Source: Acidimicrobiia bacterium
GTDB taxonomy: Bacteria > Actinomycetota > Acidimicrobiia > Spongiisociales > JAHEDJ01
DNA length: 33,308 nt
Direction: 5' to 3'
Assembly: GCA_029210695.1 (NCBI GenBank)
Contig: JARGFH010000041.1
Location: 1 to 33,308, forward strand
Shown: in pieces, positions 30,996 through 33,231 of the stretch
How the letters are laid out: every line of letters starts with the position of its first letter
Numbering within the stretch: the stretch's first letter is position 1
Notes under the pieces: generated by a model
Seen by the model: only the letters and a program-made list of their open reading frames with translations
The model's database searches: none
What the model was told of the DNA's origin: nothing
Program-made: the position numbers and the translations under genes

Positions 30996-31088
30996 ATGCA
31001 GACCCGGTTTCTCCTCGTCGCCTCGATCGTCACCGCCTTGATCATCCTCATCGCCTCGGCGGTGTGGTTGGCGGTGGTCGTCTCATGA
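30996..31088 (+). CDS. Possible 30-residue single-pass membrane peptide
   Basis: An open frame starting MQTRFLLVASIVTALIILIA, with one long hydrophobic segment (about 5-29), a basic N-terminus and a stop right after VVVS. No Shine-Dalgarno is visible. A TACGCT -10-like hexamer sits 9 bases before the ATG, so a short-leader or leaderless transcript is possible. It diverges from the E3 gene and precedes the paired palindromic repeats. Hydrophobic bias at this GC content can arise by chance, so this is tentative; small one-helix proteins of this kind are common but rarely annotated. Confidence 0.4.
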   Translation: MQTRFLLVASIVTALIILIASAVWLAVVVS

Positions 31089-31092
31089 AGCC

Positions 31093-31142
31093 GTTTCTCC
31101 GCAATACTGTGAACCGCCAGCGACCATTGCATTGCGCAGAAA
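31093..31142. repeat. Palindromic 50-bp repeat, copy 1
   Basis: Begins GTTTCTCCGCAATACTGTG and ends CATTGCATTGCGCAGAAA. The ends TTTCTCCGCAAT and ATTGCGCAGAAA are inverted repeats matching at 11 of 12 positions. It is repeated 60 bp further on with three substitutions. Confidence 0.9.
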
Positions 31143-31152
31143 ATGCATCAAG

Positions 31153-31202
31153 GTTTCTCGGCAATACTGTGGACCACCAGCGACCATTGCATTGCGCAGA
31201 AA
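31153..31202. repeat. Palindromic 50-bp repeat, copy 2
   Basis: Differs from copy 1 at three of 50 positions (31160, 31172, 31176); its terminal inverted repeats match at 10 of 12. It ends 12 bases before the dodecin gene's ribosome site, so it lies in the probable promoter or leader of that operon. Confidence 0.9.
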
Positions 31203-31225: not shown

Positions 31226-31444
31226 ATGATCACCAAGACCGTCCGACTCAGCGGTAGCTGTCCCGACTCGATCGAAGACGCCATCAACGGTGTGCTCGGC
31301 CGCGCCGCCGAGACCCTCTCGGACATCCAGTCCTTCCGGGTGGTGGAGGTCGGAGGAACGGTCGACGCGTCGGGCGCTCCATCTGACTACACGGTCACCC
31401 TCGACATCACGTTCGTCGTCAAGGAATCCACGACCCACCGCTGA
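31226..31444 (+). CDS. Dodecin-family protein, possible flavin or CoA storage protein
   Basis: A 72-residue protein with the dodecin layout: strand, SCPDSIEDAINGVLGRAAETL helix, then two strands (FRVVEVGGTV and YTVTLDITFVV). Dodecins form 12-subunit hollow spheres that store flavins. The Trp that stacks on flavin in typical members (the WFEV segment of the mycobacterial protein) is replaced here: the sequence reads SFRV, with Ser36 at the Trp position. Flavin binding may therefore be weak or different. GAGG at 31215-31218 precedes the ATG at good spacing. The stop shares one base with the next start (TGATG), so translation is coupled to the MBL-fold enzyme. Confidence 0.85.
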   Translation: MITKTVRLSGSCPDSIEDAINGVLGRAAETLSDIQSFRVVEVGGTVDASGAPSDYTVTLDITFVVKESTTHR

Positions 31445-32424: not shown

Positions 32425-33053
32425 CCCTTCCACTCCTGACCGCCGACGGCTTGACGCTGGAGCACCGGTGGTCGGTGCCCCATGACTTCGACCGAGTTGC
32501 TGTGCTATGTCACCCGCATCCACTGCAGGGCGGCTCGATGGACGCCCCCCTCCTGCGACGGGTGAAGAACGTCCTCACCGAACGAGGCTTCGCCGTATTG
32601 CGCTTCAACTTCAGGGGCGTCGGCGCTTCCCACGGTTCCCACGGAGGCGGCGTGAGCGAGGTGCAGGACATCGAAGCCGCCGTCGAGCTCGCCCGCACCA
32701 GCCACCCGGATCTTCCCCTCGGCATCGCCGGGTGGTCCTTCGGATCGGTCATCGCCCTTCGCTGGTCTGCCCAACACCGGTCAGATCTGCCCTACGCGGG
32801 TATCGCTCCACCGGTCGGCAGCGACCTCATACTCGAACTACCTGAAATACGGCACCTCGTCCCGGCGCCGCGCACCTTGATCATCGGCGACAACGACCAG
32901 TTCACCACCGTCGACAAGGTCGAGGACTATGCCGCCTCGATCGGAGCGAAGGTCGAGGTCGTGAAAGGAAGCGACCACTTCTTCTTCACGAAAGAAGGCG
33001 TAGTAGGCGAGTTGGTGGCCGCCGCACTGAGCCACACAGAACTCAGAACGTAA
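32421..33053 (+). CDS. Alpha/beta hydrolase, small serine hydrolase
   Basis: A 210-residue hydrolase of the type that begins with CHPHPLQGGSM, an oxyanion-hole segment common in bacterial dienelactone-hydrolase-like esterases. The nucleophile is Ser106 in GWSFGS, the acid is Asp157 or Asp159 in GDNDQF and the general base His186 in GSDHFF. The LRFNFRGVGASHG segment gives the usual strand before the cap. The natural substrate is unknown. The start is GTG at 32421, overlapping the MBL stop as GTGA; the frame is open far upstream, but that part is out-of-frame noise over the MBL gene. Its 3' end is echoed by a degraded copy about 170 bases downstream. Confidence 0.85.
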   Translation: MTLPLLTADGLTLEHRWSVPHDFDRVAVLCHPHPLQGGSMDAPLLRRVKNVLTERGFAVLRFNFRGVGASHGSHGGGVSEVQDIEAAVELARTSHPDLPLGIAGWSFGSVIALRWSAQHRSDLPYAGIAPPVGSDLILELPEIRHLVPAPRTLIIGDNDQFTTVDKVEDYAASIGAKVEVVKGSDHFFFTKEGVVGELVAAALSHTELRT

Positions 33054-33082
33054 AACCTAGAACTCGCTCCAGGCACCGCAAA

Positions 33083-33150: not shown

Positions 33151-33228
33151 CGACCACCTGCTCATCACCAAGGCGTAGTAGGCGAGCTGGTCGCCACCGT
33201 GTTGAGCCACATAGAACTCAGAACATAG
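33151..33228 (+). pseudogene. Degraded copy of the alpha/beta hydrolase 3' end
   Basis: The bases align with 32972-33053 of the intact gene, including the identical GGCGTAGTAGGCGAG. The remnant encodes DHLLI, then after a 4-base deletion (frameshift) GVVGELVATVLSHIELRT and a stop, against GVVGELVAAALSHTELRT in the intact copy. Similarity runs past the stop into the shared CAGAAC...AACCTAG sequence. It has no start or catalytic residues and cannot make a functional enzyme. Confidence 0.75.
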
Positions 33229-33231
33229 AAC

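Follow-up and report, generated by a model that had tools for sequence, protein, structure and literature searches.

Twin palindromes beside a dodecin gene belong to a dispersed, REP-like repeat family probably partnered by an AbiEi-nuclease fusion

What is a pair of nearly identical palindromes doing between a gene for a tiny membrane peptide and a dodecin gene? The question arises from a 33,308-nucleotide stretch of DNA from an Acidimicrobiia bacterium (assembly GCA_029210695.1, contig JARGFH010000041.1; hereafter, the window), in which an initial annotation, made from the letters alone, described two 50-bp copies 10 bp apart and offered three readings: operator sites, two insertions of a small mobile palindrome, or structured RNA in a leader. 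The copies (31093-31142 and 31153-31202) are indeed 47/50 identical with an exact period of 60 bp from start to start; the window contains no further match to the repeat, and 100 shuffles gave 0. Family-wide comparison instead defines a unit of 49 bp and a linker of 11 bp, and the 12-base inverted ends are present but imperfect (11/12 and 10/12). No enzyme for the repeats is encoded within the window itself (the annotation had noted the lack of a transposase for them), and the annotation's dodecin assignment is borne out by Pfam (Table 1); a metallo-beta-lactamase-fold gene and then an alpha/beta hydrolase gene follow downstream. The tiny peptide gene is probably real: it has no Pfam match, but 27/30 residues (by eye) are kept in the relative G002, where a twin again stands behind its stop codon. 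In the window, the twin begins 5 bp after the peptide gene stop and ends 23 bp ahead of the dodecin start. Farther along, by reading only, the 3' end of the hydrolase gene (32990-33056) is seemingly duplicated ~175 bp downstream (33165-33230), and what resembles an insertion sequence boundary follows this duplication at the window end.

Table 1. Positions of the twin and its neighbours in the window, and of two paralogous nuclease genes with their palindromes
Feature	Location	Strand	Remarks
Unit 1 of twin, 49-bp imperfect palindrome	Window 31094..31142	.	Half-sites 31094-31117 and 31119-31142; 0 mismatches to the genome-wide pattern
Linker of twin, 11 bp	Window 31143..31153	.	Length fixed, letters variable
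Unit 2 of twin, 49-bp imperfect palindrome	Window 31154..31202	.	Polarity as in unit 1
Membrane peptide gene, 30 aa	Window 30996..31088	+	ORF; conserved with the twin in G002 (L282)
Dodecin gene	Window 31226..31444	+	PF07311, E=5e-14; neighbour, outside the element system
Gene B, AbiEi_4 paralogue	G000 contig C3 89351-90307		Own 48-bp palindrome TTCTGGCGTCAG...CTGACGCCAGAA at 89246 and 90268
Gene C, AbiEi/MTES_1575 paralogue	G001 contig C70 218932-219858		Own 47-bp palindrome TTCTTGCGTCAG...CTGACGCAAGAA at 218882 and 219889

One alternative considered at the outset was that the repeat occurs as this pair only, which is wrong. The repeats are a real dispersed family of short palindromic extragenic repeats: a strict pattern found 60 units in the window's genome (G000, a 3.9-Mb draft assembly), in dozens of dispersed copies, and 36, 100, 108 and 30 units in the other four of five congeners, with 0 in reversed-pattern controls. 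A PWM scan of 2.0 Mb returned 127 units, all far above the zero control. Across 84,980 species, the family is essentially limited to this genus, with one isolated match in each of about 8 unrelated genomes outside it, and neither viral contigs nor plasmids contained copies. A class-wide scan revealed no further genus with more than two matches, in step with controls, and a de novo search of 400 kb of G024 yielded no comparable inverted-repeat family. One twin of the family lies on a short Gemmatimonadetes MAG contig (L077:3442-3548) that is probably mis-binned.

Family alignment resolves the unit into two 24-bp half-sites around a single central base (TTTCTnnGCAATRC...). The 127 units form 76 clusters of one or two, never tandem triples, and the gap within twins is 11 bp in 49/51 cases and 10 bp in 2/51; separate clusters are sometimes 153-221 bp apart. 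Units are polar, both members share the same polarity in 33/36 scorable twins, and the two units of a twin repeat directly (their cores are 0.84 identical when compared in direct order and 0.47 when compared in inverted order), while polarity relative to transcription shows no significant preference (35:23, p=0.15). A CRISPR array, with three or more repeats and spacers of 25-40 bp, is excluded by runs of at most two units and linkers of 10-11 bp, as the annotation had concluded from the short spacer. Its suggestion of a small palindrome inserted twice is right as to dispersal, given the genome-wide copies, but a double insertion is unlikely because the twin with its fixed 11-bp linker is itself the usual form. 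Birth of twins by 60-bp slippage that included the left flank left only a weak excess of matches (3.41 vs 3.05 of 11), and a target-site duplication signature was weak and not significant, being reached by 56/1000 shuffles. In G001, two identical units lie 153 bp apart, off the 60-bp period (L136:3738-3939; contig C11 27738-27939).

The elements sit immediately behind genes. With gene ends called by a simple home-made gene caller, 125/154 stop-side distances were 0-15 bp, compared with only 8/100 start-side distances. At tandem junctions, the preceding stop was no more than 15 bp away from 34/39 elements, compared with 14 expected under uniform placement, and at convergent junctions both stops were within 15 bp in 20/22; convergent junctions were themselves enriched for elements (7.3% vs 3% of junctions). 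The neighbouring genes have mixed functions with no common theme. REPs of other bacteria are placed behind genes in the same way (PMC3733652).

Many orthologous junctions, including the dodecin-locus site, keep their element across congeners, even with flanking genes ~75% identical, although the conserved share is not an unbiased rate because the comparison set was enriched for element loci. Between G000 and G003, arm positions 2-3, 5 and 8-12 and their partners are essentially invariant, while position 18 differs in 22/22 orthologous units and position 7 agrees in just 14%. In these two genomes, orthologous units resemble each other in their inner cores no better than units from unrelated loci do (0.46 vs 0.47); in the more closely related G000 and G001, the core is specific to its locus (0.88 vs 0.70). 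The inner sequence shifts genome-wide, producing clade dialects. Some lineages show a twin that has lost one unit, and at a few sites one species has no element; one such site, in G000, seemingly holds an ordinary hairpin instead. Among the loci compared, which included few empty sites, neither a target-site duplication nor a clean insertion was seen.

Such placement could also be that of REP/BIME-like hairpins transcribed at 3' ends, acting as bidirectional terminators, mRNA 3' stabilisers or ribosome-stalling REPs without a dedicated enzyme. The short distance from stop codons, the enrichment at convergent junctions, the hairpin at the empty G000 site and the strong folding of the units (mean about -21 kcal/mol on either strand) all suit this explanation. 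However, comparing the two halves of units inside single genomes reveals no compensatory changes; the halves vary independently or avoid matching, with mismatches tending to fall at positions such as 15-16, 22 and 24 in G000 and G001 and 18, 20-21 and 23-24 in G003. G-U is as frequent as A-C on the transcribed strand (43 vs 48), sense and antisense pairing are alike, and folding energies do not differ between strands. The invariant arm letters demand sequence recognition, and hairpins would leave unexplained the palindrome-framed nuclease genes described below. We consider the enzyme-free hairpin unlikely. The structured leader RNA was likewise rejected, as the repeat had no match in Rfam, no strand bias in pairing and no covariation. 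Because compensation and strand differences are absent, G-U equals A-C and the units are polar, these substitution patterns favour recognition of two unlike 24-bp half-sites in double-stranded DNA over that of an RNA hairpin.

A candidate for the recognising protein came from an order-wide scan, which uncovered a sister dialect in g4, a genus of another family (g1 denotes the genus of G000 and its congeners). Units there, such as TTTCTCGTCAATGCTGGCGTCG(N5)CGACGCCAGCATTGACGAGAAA, are also 49 bp long with unlike halves, number 33 and 19, and form twins 60-61 bp apart. A single gene, gene A, is framed on both sides by twins or elements in g1 and g4 (G000, where it is split over two contig ends, G001, G003, G007 and G014), and in 5/5 of these genomes 44 bp separate the end of the upstream twin from the start codon of the gene. 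The gene A proteins of g4 and g1 are 49-55% identical. Domains of the AbiEi-nuclease proteins are PF13338, PF04480 and PF18741; the gene A protein matches the PADLOC AbiEi model (E about 1e-31, residues 11-174) and has a C-terminal DUF559/MTES_1575 domain, a nuclease of the Vsr/EDxHD type. Only the two end domains of the AF2 model are usable, its overall quality being poor (pLDDT 56); top matches of a fold search include the catalytic domain of the homing endonuclease I-Bth0305I and AbiEi 6y8q; a PDB sequence search gave no match. Among ORFs assigned by reading, the neighbours of gene A include Nudix, GNAT and L25-like genes in g1 and a decarboxylase-like gene in g4; the upstream Nudix/GNAT neighbours are common to both genera and the downstream neighbour differs. 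The framing in G000, G001 and G003 is one inherited event, and the independent pairings are therefore few: A in two genera, B and C. Where homologous DNA was at hand, other sampled g4 sites did not coincide with g1 sites, with one exception: the decarboxylase-like gene beside the g4 nuclease carries an element at its 3' end in G002 as well. That G002 gene and its 3' element lie in a different neighbourhood (L310:2611-3048; L033), possibly through rearrangement between element copies.

Genes B and C, the only two other such genes found in the G000 and G001 DNA examined, each have a palindrome of their own (Table 1), so that three paralogous nuclease genes are framed by three different palindrome families. 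Together with its framing palindromes, the B locus spans L193:9246-10315 (G000 C3 89246-90315) and the C locus L232:18882-19935 (G001 C70 218882-219935). More copies of the B palindrome lie 3-11 bp behind stops (C3 55241, 67526 and 87958, C12 41413, and G001 C52 62630), and more of the C palindrome at C21 46240, C35 51985 and C70 174613, so that both families, too, are dispersed at the ends of other genes. Exact half-sites of the two palindromes numbered 9 and 5, with about 0.1 expected by base count, and the reversed control gave one match; by symmetry score alone, 2.3% of random upstream regions contain a palindrome as good as that of B.

From these comparisons and from analogy with known systems, we think it likely that the twin is a dispersed recognition element of the AbiEi-nuclease, in a system like that of REPINs and RAYTs with an unrelated enzyme. 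An AbiEi-type protein fused to a Vsr/EDxHD-like (DUF559/MTES_1575) nuclease and encoded elsewhere in the genome would recognise the elements, each 49-bp unit presenting two unlike inverted half-sites (about 23 bp, 3 bp apart) in the build of an AbiEi operator; the usual element consists of two such units with a 60-bp period and the same orientation. The twin upstream of the nuclease gene would probably be an autoregulatory operator, with the second twin behind the gene. Further copies would have reached the 3' ends of genes in the past, probably aided by the nuclease, and since then would have been inherited vertically while co-evolving with it; the elements may also influence neighbouring genes or mRNA ends. 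Against this, the long-kept positions may just as well reflect domestication for a role at 3' ends. We lean slightly towards a broader proposal, in which an AbiEi-antitoxin/homing-endonuclease-like fusion plays the part of RAYT and one genome can hold several independent nuclease-palindrome pairs with dialects of their own.

The elements could instead be sites at gene ends that have never moved and that bind an ordinary nucleoid protein or regulator of the host, with the AbiEi-nuclease merely one regulated gene. Arms conserved at orthologous positions would fit, as would the dialect shift, which suggests a co-evolving protein, yet the genes beside the elements share no function, the two genera mostly have their elements in different places, and paralogues B and C have different palindromes; we regard such a host protein as improbable. 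An operator pair governing the dodecin operon is hardly credible despite the twin's location just upstream, because one dodecin copy in G002 has no twin beside it, because the twin accompanies the peptide gene's 3' end, and because there are dozens of copies elsewhere whose usual site is behind a stop codon. The peptide-twin-dodecin order recurs in G002 (L282) in the other dialect, so a relative keeps the pair. The two dodecin upstream contexts in G002 (L174, L282) are lpd-peptide-twin at a contig end and an unrelated gene without a twin. The annotation's operator reading survives in another sense, because the design is AbiEi-like and a twin precedes the candidate AbiEi-nuclease gene.

If the twin is a recognition element of the AbiEi-nuclease, partnerships between REP-like repeats and enzymes arose more than once, with unrelated enzymes, and the natural protein-palindrome series (A, B, C and the two A dialects) could be used to study specificity and the ways in which short repeats disperse and are maintained within bacterial genomes. 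AbiEi_4/DUF559 proteins are named antitoxins or else are unknowns; their tie to specific dispersed DNA elements now provides a testable target. What is new here is a REP-like arrangement around an enzyme without an earlier link to such repeats, and our search of the literature on DUF559 together with REP-like repeats found no paper linking both.

Three known systems offer comparisons. The site bound by S. agalactiae AbiEi is 49 bp long, made up of two 23-bp inverted repeats with 3 bp between them, and the M. tuberculosis Rv2827c promoter carries two inverted-repeat pairs in tandem (PMC7319586). The operators of AbiE type IV toxin-antitoxin systems thus share with the elements a 49-bp layout and tandem pairs upstream of an AbiEi-domain gene (PMC7319586), here as 49-bp units, a twin of which precedes gene A by 44 bp in five genomes. 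Unlike AbiE operators, the elements exist in dozens of genomic copies at gene ends, and AbiEi is fused to a nuclease domain; in the stretches examined, with ORFs read by eye, no gene for a toxin such as the nucleotidyltransferase AbiEii was recognised beside gene A. EDxHD homing endonucleases (I-Bth0305I) and Vsr-like nucleases resemble the C-terminal domain fold of the AbiEi-nuclease, whereas here an AbiEi antitoxin is the DNA-binding part and the palindromes lie outside any intron or intein. REP/BIME/REPIN elements with RAYT share the dispersed imperfect palindromes, 3'-end placement, heterotypic halves, vertical persistence and an enzyme gene framed by repeats (PMC3733652, PMC8049555). They differ in that the twins here are direct repeats rather than inverted (HH/TT) dimers, with a 49-bp unit, a fixed 11-bp linker and an AbiEi-nuclease fusion as candidate partner. 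The RAYT tyrosine transposase (Y1_Tnp, PF01797) had 0 matches in G000-G004, G007 and G014, with working controls, and the GTAG/CGTC tag is absent from the stem foot (GTAG 1x and CGTC/GACG 11x in 392 six-base flank segments). Because RAYT and the tag are lacking and the twins are direct, we do not file the elements under REP/REPIN, but the system probably works like one.
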